Assembly: GCF_900013425.1 (NCBI RefSeq) | Contig: NZ_FBXK01000005.1 | Location: 2,604,001 to 2,668,000 of the forward strand | Direction of reading: 5' to 3' | Origin: Sphingobium sp. Z007 | GTDB lineage: Bacteria; Pseudomonadota; Alphaproteobacteria; Sphingomonadales; Sphingomonadaceae | DNA: 64,000 nt | In this document: in pieces, positions 2,623-45,630 of the stretch | Numbering within the stretch: the stretch's first letter is position 1 | Layout: each line of letters starts with the position of its first letter | Notes under the pieces: generated by a model | Seen by the model: the letters and a program-made list of their open reading frames with translations, nothing else | Told to the model about the DNA's origin: nothing | Databases searched by the model: none | Made by a program: the position numbers and the translations under genes

Positions 2623-4746
2623 ATGACGACACGACAGGCATATCATGTCCGGCGCATCCTGGTTGCGGCGCTGATGACAGCCTCGTCCCTGCCCTTGATG
2701 GCGCAAGCTCAGTCGACGCCCGCACCAAGCCCCAATCTTCCTTATGAGGCGACGCAGGATGAAGAGCCGATCCTGACGGACGACCAGTTCGAGGCCCGCC
2801 TGCCCAAGGTCGAAAGCGCCAATCCCAATGCGCCCCTGCCCTCCATCGATAGCTGGATCGACCAGCAGATGCCGCAGCAATCGACAGCGCCGGCCGAATT
2901 GCCGCCAGCGACCGATCCGGCCGAGGAACAGGAACTGGCCCAGCCGTTGCCGCCGCTAGGCAGCGTCACCGTACCGGCCAATGTCGCATCCAGTGCCGAT
3001 CCCAATGCGAAGCAGCCCGATATACGCTATGCCACCAGCATCGAAGGCTTCGGCAAGACGGGACTGGAAGACGAATTCCGCGCCGCATCCGCATTGATGG
3101 ACGGCAAGGGCAAGGCGGAAACCGCGGCCATGGTGCAGGCGCGCGCGCAGGAGGATGAGAAGCTGGCGACGCGCCTCTTCTATTCCGAAGGCTATTATGA
3201 CGCGACCGCGCTGGCCAGCCTGGACCAGGCGGGCGACGGGACGCTCAAGGCCGTGATTTCCGTGACGCCGGGCAAGCGCTACAAGATCGGCGACATTGTC
3301 ATTACCGCGGGGCCGACCGTGCCCCCCGGTCTGGTGCGCGACAGCCTGCCGCTCAAGACCGGCGATTATATCGTCGCGACCTTGGTGGAAGGCGCGGAGG
3401 CCAATGTCGCGCTGAAGCTGCCGGAAAATGGCTATCCCTTCGCGAACGTGGGCCAGCGCGATATCTTGCTCGATCCCGCGACGGTGACGGGCGACTATAC
3501 ATTGCCGGTCGAAACCGGCCCACGCGGCACGTTCCGCAAGATCACCACCAGCGGCGACAAGCAGGCGTTCGGCGCCGACCATATGGAGGTCATCAAGCGC
3601 TACAAGCCGGGCGAACTTTACGACAGCCGCAAGGTGGACGATCTGCGCAAGGCGCTGGTGGCGACATCCCTGTTTTCCAGCGTATCGGTGGAGCCGGTGC
3701 GGACCGGTGAGGCGGGGCCGGACGGCACCGAATATGTCGATTTGGCCGTGGAGCAGGACGCGGGACCGCCGCGAACGCTGGCGGGCGAAGCGGGCTATGG
3801 CACCGGGCAGGGTTTCCGGGCCGAAGCGACATGGACCCATCGCAACTTCTTCCCGCCCGAGGGCGCATTGATCGGCGGCGTCATCGCCGGCACGCAGGAG
3901 CAAGGCGTTTCGGGCACATTCCGCCGGTCCAATGCGGGCAAGCGGGACAGGACTTTCCAGGCCGGCGCGACGCTCAACCACCAGAAGTACGACGCCTATG
4001 AAGCCTTCACCGCGGGGCTGAACATCGGCTGGGCACGCCAGTCGACGCCGATCTTCCAAAAGCGCTGGACCTACAGCTATGGCGCGGAAATTCTGCTGAC
4101 CAACGAGCAGGTGGTGATCGACCCGGCGACCGCGGACAAGACGCGGCGCACCTATTTCATCGGCGGCCTGCCGGTGCAGATCGGCTATGATCGGTCCAAC
4201 GATCTGCTCAACCCGACCAAGGGATTCCGCGCCAATCTGCGGGCCGAACCGGAAGGGTCGTTGCAGGGCAGTTTTTCCCCCTATCTGCGCGCCAGTTTCG
4301 ACCTGACCGGCTATTATCCCGTGTCGGACAGCCTGGTGATCGCGGGCCGGGCCAAGGTCGGCACCATCACCGGCGTCAGCCGCGCCGATGTCGCGCCTTC
4401 GCGGCGTATCTATGCAGGCGGCGGCGGATCGGTGCGTGGCTTTGGCTATCAGGAACTGGGGCCAAAGGACGCCAATAACGATCCGATCGGCGGCCGGTCC
4501 GTCAATGAATTTGCGGTCGAGGGTCGGTATCGCTTCGGCAATTATGGCGTCGTCGCCTTCGTGGACGCCGGTCAAGTCTATGAAAGCTCCATGCCAGAAT
4601 TTTCCGACATGCGGTACGGCGTCGGCCTGGGCGGCCGCTTTTACACCAATTTCGGTCCCTTCCGCGCGGACATCGCCATGCCGATCAACCGGCAGCCTGG
4701 CGAGTCCAAATTCGCCCTCTATATCGGCATCGGGCAGGCCTTCTGA
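2623..4746 (+). CDS. tamA: Translocation and assembly module outer-membrane protein TamA (Omp85 family)
   Basis: TamA is an Omp85-type outer-membrane protein that works with TamB in moving proteins or phospholipids to the outer membrane. From the ATG at 2623 the product is 707 residues with a signal peptide ending near AQAQS. Upstream in-frame GTG (2587) and ATG (2599) codons would only put charged residues before the signal peptide, so 2623 is preferred. After an unusually long acidic, proline-rich stretch of roughly 100 residues come POTRA-like repeats and a C-terminal beta barrel. The barrel includes the Omp85 L6 segment GGSVRGFGYQELG and ends in an aromatic residue (GIGQAF). The stop codon overlaps the tamB start by one base, which indicates a coupled operon. 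Confidence 0.9.
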   Translation: MTTRQAYHVRRILVAALMTASSLPLMAQAQSTPAPSPNLPYEATQDEEPILTDDQFEARLPKVESANPNAPLPSIDSWIDQQMPQQSTAPAELPPATDPAEEQELAQPLPPLGSVTVPANVASSADPNAKQPDIRYATSIEGFGKTGLEDEFRAASALMDGKGKAETAAMVQARAQEDEKLATRLFYSEGYYDATALASLDQAGDGTLKAVISVTPGKRYKIGDIVITAGPTVPPGLVRDSLPLKTGDYIVATLVEGAEANVALKLPENGYPFANVGQRDILLDPATVTGDYTLPVETGPRGTFRKITTSGDKQAFGADHMEVIKRYKPGELYDSRKVDDLRKALVATSLFSSVSVEPVRTGEAGPDGTEYVDLAVEQDAGPPRTLAGEAGYGTGQGFRAEATWTHRNFFPPEGALIGGVIAGTQEQGVSGTFRRSNAGKRDRTFQAGATLNHQKYDAYEAFTAGLNIGWARQSTPIFQKRWTYSYGAEILLTNEQVVIDPATADKTRRTYFIGGLPVQIGYDRSNDLLNPTKGFRANLRAEPEGSLQGSFSPYLRASFDLTGYYPVSDSLVIAGRAKVGTITGVSRADVAPSRRIYAGGGGSVRGFGYQELGPKDANNDPIGGRSVNEFAVEGRYRFGNYGVVAFVDAGQVYESSMPEFSDMRYGVGLGGRFYTNFGPFRADIAMPINRQPGESKFALYIGIGQAF

Positions 4747-42168: not shown

Positions 42169-43122
42169 ATGGCCGCCGCCATCGCCCTGTCGGCGCGCGG
42201 GCGCGGCCTTTCCACCCCCAATCCCAATGTCGGCTGCCTGATCGTTCGCGACGGCCGGATCGTCGGACGCGGCTGGACCCAGAAGGGCGGCCGTCCCCAT
42301 GCCGAGGCGCAGGCGCTGGACCAGGCGATGGACCGGGCGGCGGGGGCGACGGCCTATGTCACGCTGGAGCCTTGCTTCCATCTGTCGCCACGCGGGCCGC
42401 GCTGCGCCGACCTGATGGCGCGCGCCGGCATCGGCCGTATGGTAATCGCGCTGCGCGATCCCGATCCGCGCACGAACGGACAGGGCGCAGCCTGGCTGCG
42501 CGACCGCGGCGTGGCGGTCGAGATGGGTCTGATGGCGGATGAGGCCGCGCGCGCCATGGCCGGGTTCGTGCTGCGCCAGACGTTGGGGCGGCCGCATGTG
42601 ACATTGAAGCTCGGCCTCTCGCTCGACGGACGAATCGCGTTGGCGGACGGATCGAGCCGCTGGATCACCGGCCCGGATGCGCGCGCCCATGCCCATATGG
42701 AGCGGGCGCGGCATGACGCCATTCTGGTGGGCGGCGGGACGCTCAGGGCGGATGCCCCGACGCTGGACGTGCGGCTGGCGGGGCTGGCGGATCGTTCCCC
42801 ACGCCGGGTGTTGCTGAGCCGGGGCGACGCGCCGGAAGGCTGGACGCGGATCGGCGCGCCGGAGGAGATTGCGACGCTGGAGCGGGTTGACCATCTGCTG
42901 GTCGAAGGCGGGGCGGAAACCGCGGCGGCTTTCCTGCGCGCGGGACTGGTCGATCGGCTGCTGCTCTATCGCGCGCCGATCATCATCGGGTCCGGCCTTG
43001 CCGGGATCGGCGACATCGGGCTGTTCGATCTGGCCGATGCCCATGGCCGCTGGCGGATGACCGACGGCCGCACGCTGGGCGACGACAGGCTGGAGGTTTA
43101 CGAGCGGGTCGCGAGCGCTTAG
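42169..43122 (+). CDS. ribD: Bifunctional riboflavin deaminase/reductase RibD
   Basis: RibD deaminates and then reduces the pyrimidine intermediate of riboflavin synthesis. The 317 residues after the ATG at 42169 include the zinc site PHAEAQAL and EPCFHLSPRGPRCADL, then the reductase domain (VTLKLGLSLDGRIA, HDAILVGGGTLRADAP, VEGGAETAAAFL). The reading frame stays open upstream, and 18 more codons including QDRRY just before the ATG resemble the start of other RibD proteins. The true start may be a CTG at 42115 overlapping the previous stop, with GGGAG ahead of it. Confidence 0.93.
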   Translation: MAAAIALSARGRGLSTPNPNVGCLIVRDGRIVGRGWTQKGGRPHAEAQALDQAMDRAAGATAYVTLEPCFHLSPRGPRCADLMARAGIGRMVIALRDPDPRTNGQGAAWLRDRGVAVEMGLMADEAARAMAGFVLRQTLGRPHVTLKLGLSLDGRIALADGSSRWITGPDARAHAHMERARHDAILVGGGTLRADAPTLDVRLAGLADRSPRRVLLSRGDAPEGWTRIGAPEEIATLERVDHLLVEGGAETAAAFLRAGLVDRLLLYRAPIIIGSGLAGIGDIGLFDLADAHGRWRMTDGRTLGDDRLEVYERVASA

Positions 43123-43228: not shown

Positions 43229-43843
43229 ATGTTCACCGGCATCATCACTGACATTGGCACCATCCGCAGCCATGAGCAGCGCGGCGACCTGCGGCTGGTC
43301 ATCGGCAGCGCCTATGATATGGACGGCGTCGCCATCGGCGCGTCGATCGCCTGTTCGGGCGCCTGCCTGACGGTGGTGGAAAAGGGCGATGACTGGTTCG
43401 CGGTGGACCTGTCGGCGGAAACCGTGGCGCGCACAGCGCCGGGCCTATGGGATGAAGGCGGCCGGCTGAATCTGGAACGGGCGCTCAAGGTCGGCGACGA
43501 ACTGGGCGGGCATATCGTGACGGGCCATGTCGATGGCATCGGCCATCTGGTGTCGGCGGTGCGCGAAGGCGATTCGACCCGGCTGACGATCAGCGCGCCC
43601 GCCGACCTTGCCGCCGCGCTGGCGGCCAAAGGGTCGATCACGCTCGACGGCATATCGCTGACGGTCAACAGCGTCGATGATCAGGCCGACGGCAGCGTAT
43701 ATTTCGGGCTGAACATCATCCCGCATACCGCCGCCGCGACGACGCTGGACAGCCTGCCCGACGGGCGCGCCTTCAACCTGGAGATCGATGTGCTGGCCCG
43801 CTATCTCGACCGGATGCAGAGCCTTCGCAACCGCAGCATGTGA
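43229..43843 (+). CDS. ribE: Riboflavin synthase alpha chain
   Basis: The enzyme dismutates two 6,7-dimethyl-8-ribityllumazine molecules to riboflavin. The 204-residue product starts MFTGIITDIGTI and shows the two-repeat structure: GASIACSGACLTVVE in the first barrel and GSITLDGISLTVN in the second, with GGHIVTGHVDG between. Length is standard. It lies between ribD and the HTH-ribBX gene on the same strand. Confidence 0.97.
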   Translation: MFTGIITDIGTIRSHEQRGDLRLVIGSAYDMDGVAIGASIACSGACLTVVEKGDDWFAVDLSAETVARTAPGLWDEGGRLNLERALKVGDELGGHIVTGHVDGIGHLVSAVREGDSTRLTISAPADLAAALAAKGSITLDGISLTVNSVDDQADGSVYFGLNIIPHTAAATTLDSLPDGRAFNLEIDVLARYLDRMQSLRNRSM

Positions 43844-43858
43844 TTGCCTCTTGAATTA

Positions 43859-43876
43859 ATCACATTGTAATGTGAT
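43859..43876. promoter_or_regulatory. 18-base perfect palindrome upstream of the HTH-ribBX gene
   Basis: ATCACATT-GT-AATGTGAT lies 38 bases upstream of the ATG at 43915 in an AT-rich gap. Two 8-base arms around two bases fit a dimeric helix-turn-helix protein. A second hairpin, TCCCAC-TG-GTGGGA (43888-43901), touches the AAGGAG ribosome binding site. Confidence 0.55.
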
Positions 43877-43914
43877 ATCCGGCTCAATCCCACTGGTGGG
43901 AAGGAGTCGTTTCC

Positions 43915-45195
43915 ATGTCGTCTGCCCTGATCGATACCGTCCGCAGCCTCGTTACTGACGGCGGCATGTCCCGTTCCGGCCTGGCCCGCGCCGCTGGCCT
44001 GCACGCCAATTCGCTGCGCAAACTGGGCGAAGGCGACTGGAACCCGACCGCCGACACGCTGGGCAAGCTGGAATCCTATCTGCTCAGGCGCGAAGGCGGC
44101 ACCGCGCTCGCCAGCCCCGAAGAGATCATCAACGAAGCCCGCAACGGCCGCATGTTCATCCTGGTCGATGACGAGGATCGCGAGAATGAGGGCGACCTAG
44201 TCATCCCGGCGCAGATGGCGACCCCCGACGCGATCAATTTCATGGCGACCCACGGCCGCGGCCTCATCTGCCTGGCGCTGACCAAGAGTCGGACTGAAGA
44301 ACTGGGCCTGGACCTGATGAGCCGCAACAACGGCACGCGGCATGAAACCGCTTTCACCGTGTCGATCGAAGCGCGCGAAGGCGTGACCACCGGCATCAGC
44401 GCCGCCGACCGCGCCCGCACCATCTCCGTCGCGATCGACGGGTCGAAGGGCAAGGGCGATATCGTGACGCCCGGCCATGTCTTCCCCCTGATCGCCAAGG
44501 ATGGCGGCGTGCTGGTGCGCACCGGTCATACCGAAGCGGCGGTCGATGTCGCACGGCTGGCGGGTCTCAACCCGTCGGGCGTGATCTGCGAAGTGATGAA
44601 GGATGATGGCACGATGGCGCGCCTGGACGACCTCATCCCCTTCGCCAGCAAGCATAAGATGAAAATCGGCACGATCCGCGACCTGATCGCCTATCGCCGC
44701 CGCCACGACCATATGATCGAGCGCCGCGCCGAGACCACGTTCGACAGCCGCTGGGGCGGCGATTGGAAGGCGATCAGCTTCTACAACAAGGCGACCCAGA
44801 CCGAGCAGCTGGTGCTGCAAAAGGGTCATGTCGATCCCGACAAGCCGACTTTGGTGCGCATGCACCAGATGTCGCCGCTGAGCGATACATTCGGCAAGCT
44901 GGGCGCGCGCACCGGCCTGCTGCCGCGCTGCATGGAGATTATCGGCGAGGAAGGCGCAGGGATCATCGTCATCCTGCGCGGCGACGAGCCCGATATGCTG
45001 ACACGGATGCTGCAGCATAATGCCGGCATCGTCCAGGGCGACATGGACGAATTGCGCAATTATGGCGCGGGCGCGCAGATCCTGGCGGACCTGGGCGTGC
45101 ATGACATGATCCTGCTGACCAACAGCCACCACAGCCTGATCGCGCTTGACGGCTATGACCTGGCCGTGGTTGGGCAGCGGCCGATCGAGCTGTAA
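43915..45195 (+). CDS. ribBX: HTH-RibBX: helix-turn-helix fused to DHBP synthase and a degenerate GTP cyclohydrolase II domain
   Basis: The 426-residue protein has three parts. Residues 1-58 look like a helix-turn-helix (SRSGLARAAGLHANSLRKLG, then DWNPTADTLGKLESYL). Residues 66-265 are 3,4-dihydroxy-2-butanone 4-phosphate synthase with DDEDRENEGD, GVTTGISAADR, RPGH-type TPGHVFPL and RTGHTEAAVD intact. Residues 270-426 align with GTP cyclohydrolase II but lack the Cys-X-Cys zinc site and the QEGRNIGL motif, as in the RibBX form known from other Proteobacteria. The DHBP synthase is probably active and the last domain is not. AAGGAG precedes the ATG by 8 bases. Confidence 0.9.
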   Translation: MSSALIDTVRSLVTDGGMSRSGLARAAGLHANSLRKLGEGDWNPTADTLGKLESYLLRREGGTALASPEEIINEARNGRMFILVDDEDRENEGDLVIPAQMATPDAINFMATHGRGLICLALTKSRTEELGLDLMSRNNGTRHETAFTVSIEAREGVTTGISAADRARTISVAIDGSKGKGDIVTPGHVFPLIAKDGGVLVRTGHTEAAVDVARLAGLNPSGVICEVMKDDGTMARLDDLIPFASKHKMKIGTIRDLIAYRRRHDHMIERRAETTFDSRWGGDWKAISFYNKATQTEQLVLQKGHVDPDKPTLVRMHQMSPLSDTFGKLGARTGLLPRCMEIIGEEGAGIIVILRGDEPDMLTRMLQHNAGIVQGDMDELRNYGAGAQILADLGVHDMILLTNSHHSLIALDGYDLAVVGQRPIEL

Positions 45196-45207
45196 GGACA
45201 TATCATC

Positions 45208-45630
45208 ATGGCAAAATTCCTGATCGTCGAAGCGCGCTTCTACGACCATCTGAACGACCTGCTGATCGAAGGCGCCAAAGCGGCGCTGGACGAGGCCGGT
45301 CACAAATATGAGGTGGTAGCAGTGCCGGGCGCGCTGGAAATCCCCGGCGCCATCGCGCTGGCGGCGGAAAGCGGCCGCTATGACGGCTTCGTCGCGATCG
45401 GCGTGGTCATTCGCGGCGAAACCTATCATTTCGAAGTGGTGTCGAACGAAAGCGCCCGCGGCCTGATGGCGCTGAGCATGGATGCGATCGCGATCGGCAA
45501 CGGCATATTGACCGTCGAAAACGAAGCGCAGGCGCTGACCCGCGCGAAGCCGACCGAAAAGGACAAGGGCGGCGAGGCGGCCAAGGCGGCCATCGCCATG
45601 CTGGCGCTGCGCGAACGCTTCGGCATGTAA
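45208..45630 (+). CDS. ribH: 6,7-dimethyl-8-ribityllumazine synthase
   Basis: RibH joins the RibB product to the RibD product to make the riboflavin precursor. The 140-residue subunit has [52 protein letters not shown] and [12 protein letters not shown]. This is the family pattern. It starts 12 bases after ribBX and ends the cluster at a strong terminator. Confidence 0.97.

Follow-up and report, generated by a model that had tools for sequence, protein, structure and literature searches.

Why should an enzyme of riboflavin biosynthesis begin with what looks like a DNA-binding domain? The question is raised by a gene in a 64,000-nucleotide stretch of Sphingobium sp. Z007 DNA (contig NZ_FBXK01000005.1, positions 2,604,001 to 2,668,000 of the forward strand), which at its full length is called the window here. 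The gene encodes a helix-turn-helix (HTH) head joined to RibBX and is preceded by an operator-like palindrome; across the loci examined, head and palindrome occur together and change together. We consider it likely that a captured phage Cro-type head and its operator make RibBX an autorepressor of ribBX and, in this genome, of ribH. The features on which the argument turns are the following.

43915..45195, + strand: HTH-ribBX gene, 426 amino acids, stop codon included in the coordinates
43915..44091, + strand: Cro/XRE-type HTH head, about residues 1-59
About residues 29-37 of the protein: recognition helix LHANSLRKL, assigned by analogy with XRE domains
43859..43876, unstranded: operator-like palindrome ATCACATTGTAATGTGAT (half-sites B and C), 38 nt before the ribBX ATG
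43838..43845, unstranded: third half-site ATGTGATT (half-site A), upstream, overlapping the ribE stop codon
43851..43856, + strand: presumed -35 element TTGAAT, between half-sites A and B
43873..43878, + strand: presumed -10 element TGATAT, overlapping half-site C
43901..43906, + strand: presumed ribosome-binding site AAGGAG, read from the sequence

An earlier note, made from the letters of this DNA, had taken residues 1-58 for an HTH, and very probably they are one: among 30 head relatives scanned, HTH_3 was matched by 16/30 and HTH_26 by 11/30 at E <= 0.01, and the head profile matched the HTH domains of three phage CI repressors with a probability of 93% (E 3.5e-7). For the window head itself, profile searches agreed with the assignment in kind, returning Cro/C1-type models, but the matches were weak and under the Pfam cut-offs: PF01381 (HTH_3) against the 68-residue head piece alone gave E 0.0026 (18.2 bits, curated cut-off 23) and PF13443 (HTH_26) gave E 0.0078. 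Matches in PHROGs were also weak, the top ones being transcription regulators (E 5.4e-4), and sequence comparison of the head with solved structures gave nothing significant (best E 0.059). In two database fragments, the precomputed annotation lists both PF01381 and PF00926. A search scored on residues 1-62 returned 4447 proteins at E <= 0.001, and the 131 head-bearing loci that were fetched represent 68 genera of Sphingomonadaceae; since the head is thus conserved family-wide at the protein level, a chance extension of the open reading frame or a mis-called start was ruled out. In 128 of the 131 heads (three without the anchor motif were left out), A24, G28, L29, H30, N32, L34, R35, W42, N43, P44 and T48 are invariant.

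The palindrome scan returned one site (read on two strands) and none in 100 shuffles of the window, and the 12 fixed letters of the palindrome, with at most one mismatch, occurred once in the 4.94-Mb genome. Upstream regions were then compared over 186 loci, comprising 131 with the head, 25 head-less loci of the same family, 18 head-less loci of other families and 12 head-less paralogues, 11 of which come from head-bearing genomes. The sample is not random, being a subset of the query matches in which, beyond the best matches, head loci were picked at about one per genus. By eye, the same arrangement was seen before the 58 head-bearing loci inspected. A position weight matrix (PWM) from 19 distinct Sphingobium sites reached at least 12 bits in 124/131 head loci and 0/55 head-less loci, the scan covering 130 nt for the former and 300 nt for the latter; outside the training loci, 94/101 reached 12 bits and 99/101 beat all 100 letter shuffles. 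When refined on all head loci, for which it is then circular, the PWM gave at least 10.9 bits in 131/131, and none of the 55 head-less loci reached 10 bits (best score 6.7 bits). The operator letters CACA and TGTG were kept at 96-100% over the 131 loci. In a set of 80 records from named genomes, the site was present in 12/12 head-bearing and 0/68 head-less ones; this set is partly independent, as at least two of the twelve (L270, L275) were already in the main set. A conserved operator-like site at the gene's own promoter is therefore tied to the DNA-binding domain. The suggestion of the earlier note that the head would let the enzyme control its own supply gains support here, the palindrome standing solely before head-bearing copies among the loci examined. 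In one genome, a second perfect copy of the operator pattern lies away from ribBX (G261:C2:298290-298309), a possible second target.

Further upstream, half-site A (at least 6 of 8 letters, no more than 40 nt before B) was found in 92/131 loci versus 29/131 shuffles, and a full second site of at least 5 bits in 24/131 loci versus 0/131 shuffles. Of these second sites, 20/24 end 11-15 nt ahead of the first; the distance between the two centres is mostly about 31 bp. As both kinds of site exceed the shuffles, they would fit cooperative binding. Between site and start codon, 11 nt is the most frequent spacing (30/131 loci), so that many of those mRNAs would be nearly leaderless; the window gene has a spacing of 38 nt and a presumed ribosome-binding site.

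Co-change was followed on a quick tree without bootstrap, made from the enzyme part only of 125 of the 186 rows, after short rows had been removed and head rows thinned to a single one for each genus (two genera kept up to three). The operator was coded by the stricter rule of the Sphingobium PWM, under which L143 and L163 count as lacking it. The result showed that the head state needs 8 changes on this tree, at least 6 of them forced by well-supported branches, and that in 6 independent pairs the operator changes the same way in 5.8 on average and the opposite way never (median sign-test p 0.031). In 9/10 head-less family loci inspected, ribBX follows ribE without a promoter-sized gap; loss or lack of the head is thus accompanied by lack of a separate promoter.

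The enzyme part of the protein and the neighbouring genes are as follows.

44119..44694, + strand: DHBP synthase (RibB) domain, residues 69-260
44722..45183, + strand: RibX domain (residues 270-423), RibA-like but lacking the three zinc-motif cysteines
42169..43122, + strand: ribD
43229..43843, + strand: ribE, riboflavin synthase, start placed at an internal ATG
45208..45630, + strand: ribH, lumazine synthase, beginning 12 nt past ribBX

The complete DHBP synthase that the earlier note had seen behind the head was recovered, PF00926 spanning the full domain (E 1.8e-83), and this part can be aligned along its length with E. coli 1iez. PF00925 covers the RibX part, in which the three zinc-motif cysteines of structure 4i14 are not conserved; we take 4i14 to be M. 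tuberculosis RibBA, in which these cysteines presumably bind zinc. Against TIGR00505 (cut-off 205.85), the RibX part scored 46.8 bits and a separate genomic locus 230.1 bits, a score that places the true RibA elsewhere in the genome. Because the zinc cysteines are missing from RibX and a separate RibA is indicated, the protein is, as judged from its domains, a RibBX plus an added head. It has a single match in its own genome. The local gene order is ribD-ribE-HTH-ribBX-ribH, with gaps of 71 nt between ribE and ribBX and of 12 nt between ribBX and ribH; as only 12 nt separate the latter two, ribH probably shares the ribBX promoter.

These observations lead us to the following mechanism. RibB enzymes are dimers, and the fusion of a Cro-type DNA-binding domain to RibBX would act as a dimer too. 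The dimer would bind 43859-43876, a site that falls between the presumed -35 and -10 of the ribBX promoter, with help from an additional half-site or site some three helical turns farther upstream; the conservation and co-occurrence of the site argue strongly for binding of the head to it. The bound protein would repress ribBX and the downstream ribH, and the enzyme would thereby set its own level. We infer repression rather than activation, because site B-C sits between the presumed -35 and -10, a position typical of repressors and one from which phage Cro represses. The alternative that fares best is that the head binds the site but activates, or forms a flavin-tuned on/off switch in place of a plain autorepressor: half-site A is on the 5' side of the presumed -35, a location open to activators, and for XRE-type factors of Wolbachia a positive effect on a ribA promoter fusion is reported in the part of that source available to us (PMC3518464). 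Given the position of site B-C, we regard such a switch as unlikely.

Less probable still, to the point of being improbable, is that a different regulator, such as one of the CRP/FNR or MarR type, uses the palindrome, the head being a passenger or an aid to folding or oligomerisation. TGTGA and TCACA do resemble CRP half-sites, but a CRP site is TGTGA-N6-TCACA, whereas the half-sites here are oppositely oriented (TCACA-N6-TGTGA), and the pattern occurs once in the genome, unlike a CRP regulon; on these two points a CRP-type site was rejected. Against any such regulator, the site is missing from all 55 head-less ribBX loci, including the paralogues from head-bearing genomes, and is present before the nearest phage Cro gene (see below). 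That the head no longer binds DNA, the fusion being a neutral relic and the operator merely historical, is scarcely credible in spite of the low Pfam scores of the window protein, since H30, N32, L34 and R35 do not vary among the 128 heads counted, the operator retains its CACA and TGTG letters at 96-100%, and it is absent wherever the head is absent, which is not expected of a relic.

For an autorepressing HTH-RibBX, the RibX domain may pass a flavin signal into the loop. Such an input is plausible, because in Shewanella oneidensis RibX is reported, in the part of the source at hand, to regulate RibB (PMC10012899). An effect of flavin or substrate, exerted via RibX or RibB, is speculative.

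Three free-standing relatives share the WNP motif of the head: L108, one in Pseudanabaena phage Pan3, and L109. In all three cases the divergent neighbour is an HTH-plus-S24 gene that matches the phage repressor family phrog_4, so that the relatives occupy the place of Cro. The L108 protein carries the organism name Tardibacter chloracetimidivorans and is also found in the IMG/VR provirus IMGVR_UViG_2718218194_000008. In this prophage, the nearest relative, ATGTGATTGATGGCTTGAAAATCACATTCAGATGTG stands before the Cro-like start, in the ribBX layout and with nearly the same letters. Pan3 and L109 share the layout but have other half-sites (AGCATA and GCGCAT) and other recognition-helix letters (HRNTLN and HDTTLR); because there are three cases only, this covariation of half-site and recognition helix is suggestive. 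In Pan3 (ON968454), the Cro-like open reading frame (L221, about 3001-3186, + strand) is unannotated on its own strand and overlaps annotated genes of the opposite strand, with its own half-site type before it. In L109 (2704-2784; G047, an apparent prophage), the Cro-like gene is preceded by CGCAT/ATGCG palindromes in tandem, two of them exact and another weaker, an arrangement reminiscent of the lambda right operator. No relative came up when viral contigs were searched with the Cro of Pan3, with P0122 and with the heads of the window protein and of L062. A phage Cro lies divergent from CI with shared operators; the window gene does not, its neighbours being ribE and ribH. A 76-residue protein on a 55-kb contig (P0226), named phage DNA-binding protein at its source, stands outside the three relatives counted.

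Two genomes from a different family of the order carry a head of the same type on a second cofactor enzyme, CoaBC, with its DFP and Flavoprotein domains (L241, 202-1674, and L242, 199-1680, both on the - strand); the fused heads have E values of 2.9e-15 and 1.5e-13 against the head profile. Two further loci (L244, L246) combine an XRE-type HTH with a kinase-like domain that looks like shikimate kinase, perhaps, by eye, a known type of benzoate regulator. No flavin mononucleotide (FMN) riboswitch (RF00050) was found in the window, nor was any detected across 149 family genomes by a scan whose filtering could miss weak matches (its control was found in 7/14 named genomes); FMN-riboswitch control of ribBX was accordingly set aside. 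A wider history, on which our judgement is evenly balanced, would be that a whole half of a phage lysis-lysogeny switch (Cro, promoter and operators) was captured and fused before a vitamin B2 gene in an ancestor of the Sphingomonadaceae, where it took the place occupied elsewhere by an FMN riboswitch and now forms a self-limiting enzyme-repressor, perhaps with RibX as flavin sensor. As the same head type was separately fused to CoaBC, capture of phage repressors may be a repeatable route to self-regulated cofactor enzymes.

Several observations weigh against autorepression by a captured phage head and have to be set beside the evidence above. The Pfam HTH scores of the window head fall under the curated cut-offs. 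Palindromy alone is not rare in shuffles (71/2000 for the window, and elsewhere 47/2000 for the prophage region, 393/2000 for Pan3 and 318/2000 for L109), and the case for an operator therefore rests on conservation and co-occurrence. A consensus promoter scan gave no sigma-70-like site before ribBX, so that the -35 and -10 elements are presumptive. With the Sphingobium PWM, L143 and L163 fail to beat all shuffles, both having degenerate sites by eye. A strict 13-letter pattern with at most one mismatch had no match in 104/298 family genomes, which have either degenerate sites or no head, and some genomes hold extra sites, perhaps other targets (in G261 a perfect one); single-target control is thus not universal. 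On the phage side, the free-standing relatives of the WNP type number only three, and the phage matches CASP1 (E 6e-4, as good as the 1e-3 of Pan3), 1N2-2 and Pan5 lack the WNP motif, for which they were set aside as more distant XRE proteins; by eye, they also lack such a site layout, and the place of the head among phage regulators is therefore not tightly fixed. A matching operator was sought upstream of the HTH-CoaBC fusions and none was seen. Lastly, we only infer the direction from phage to host, because the phage forms are diverse and the RibBX fusion occurs in one family only among the genomes searched.

As to how many sphingomonad RibB proteins have the head, a point raised by the earlier note, the fusion is present in most sampled genera of the family and is not peculiar to this genome. 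The query was matched by 290/298 family genomes, of which 49 with weaker matches were searched a second time, and the head was included in most places among the matches listed. In the genus of the window genome, the head was found in 36/37 genomes (that of the window and 36 others); one genome (60% complete) gave no match, and another has the gene split across two contigs. In other families of the order, nearly all RibBX matches start no earlier than about residue 58 and are thus head-less. Named carriers include Sphingobium, Novosphingobium, Sphingopyxis, Blastomonas, Porphyrobacter, Allopontixanthobacter and one Sphingomonas. The head is lacking in Sphingomonas lenta, S. leidyi and S. jeddahensis, and likewise in the remaining 65 head-less entries among the 80 named ones, which belong to other or unresolved groups. 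With one carrier and three named species that lack the head, the genus Sphingomonas is mixed.

Some head-like matches were discarded. Those in frames of odd length (G334, G067, G173) are head-bearing ribBX genes with broken frames. One of them (L222 in G334, genus g102) has head and operator before a frame-broken ribBX, and the other two fetched members of g102 are head-less; it is possibly a re-gain of the head or a second copy. Short head-like database proteins numbered 497 at E <= 0.001, and most of the 16 examined from the best 120 of these look like cut or frame-broken pieces of ribBX. Weaker head matches (E about 1e-4 to 1e-6) were left unused, those examined being general XRE proteins, two with a kinase-like domain.

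If the proposed loop operates, it would provide a mechanism of riboflavin control, with an exact 18-bp candidate site, for a family of common environmental bacteria in which no FMN riboswitch was detected, and would suggest that parts of phage immunity can be domesticated as metabolic control. Among the best 120 of the 4447 head proteins, where close relatives with organism names are mostly Sphingobium, the precomputed Pfam assignments hold enzyme domains only and no HTH domain; many proteins named only as enzymes may therefore also be regulators. RibX, whose mechanism is reported as unknown, would gain a possible role as the sensor that serves the repressor fused to it.

Enzymes that also act as repressors are already known. 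In line with the earlier note, which knew of no described HTH-RibBX, searches of the open-access literature, which leaves most subscription papers uncovered, returned no title or abstract on such a protein, nor on any RibB or RibBX equipped with a phage Cro-type head and an operator of its own. The RibBX of Shewanella oneidensis and other Proteobacteria resembles the window protein in having RibB followed by a RibA-like domain without zinc ligands; it differs in that no HTH head is mentioned in the available part of the source, and the head-less RibBX loci examined here have no operator. In Wolbachia, the XRE-type transcription factors wBmxR1 and wBmxR2 bind the promoter of the riboflavin gene ribA and are reported to act positively, as far as the available part of the source goes (PMC3518464). 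Unlike HTH-RibBX, these are separate, unfused proteins. The archaeal HTH-riboflavin kinase RbkR is described, in the portion of the source at hand, as both gene regulator and enzyme (PMC8305020). Like the window protein, it joins an HTH to an enzyme of the flavin pathway, but the enzyme is another one and its hosts are archaea. We know of no relationship of RbkR to phage Cro. BirA, NadR and PutA are trigger enzymes, each also a repressor of its own pathway, whose enzyme and HTH families are unrelated to those of HTH-RibBX. The lambda-type Cro/CI switch, with half-sites of the TATCAC type, likewise has a small XRE-type HTH and tandem operators, and the free-standing relatives of the head sit in such switches; in the window, by contrast, the head forms part of a vitamin enzyme, with rib genes and not CI as neighbours.
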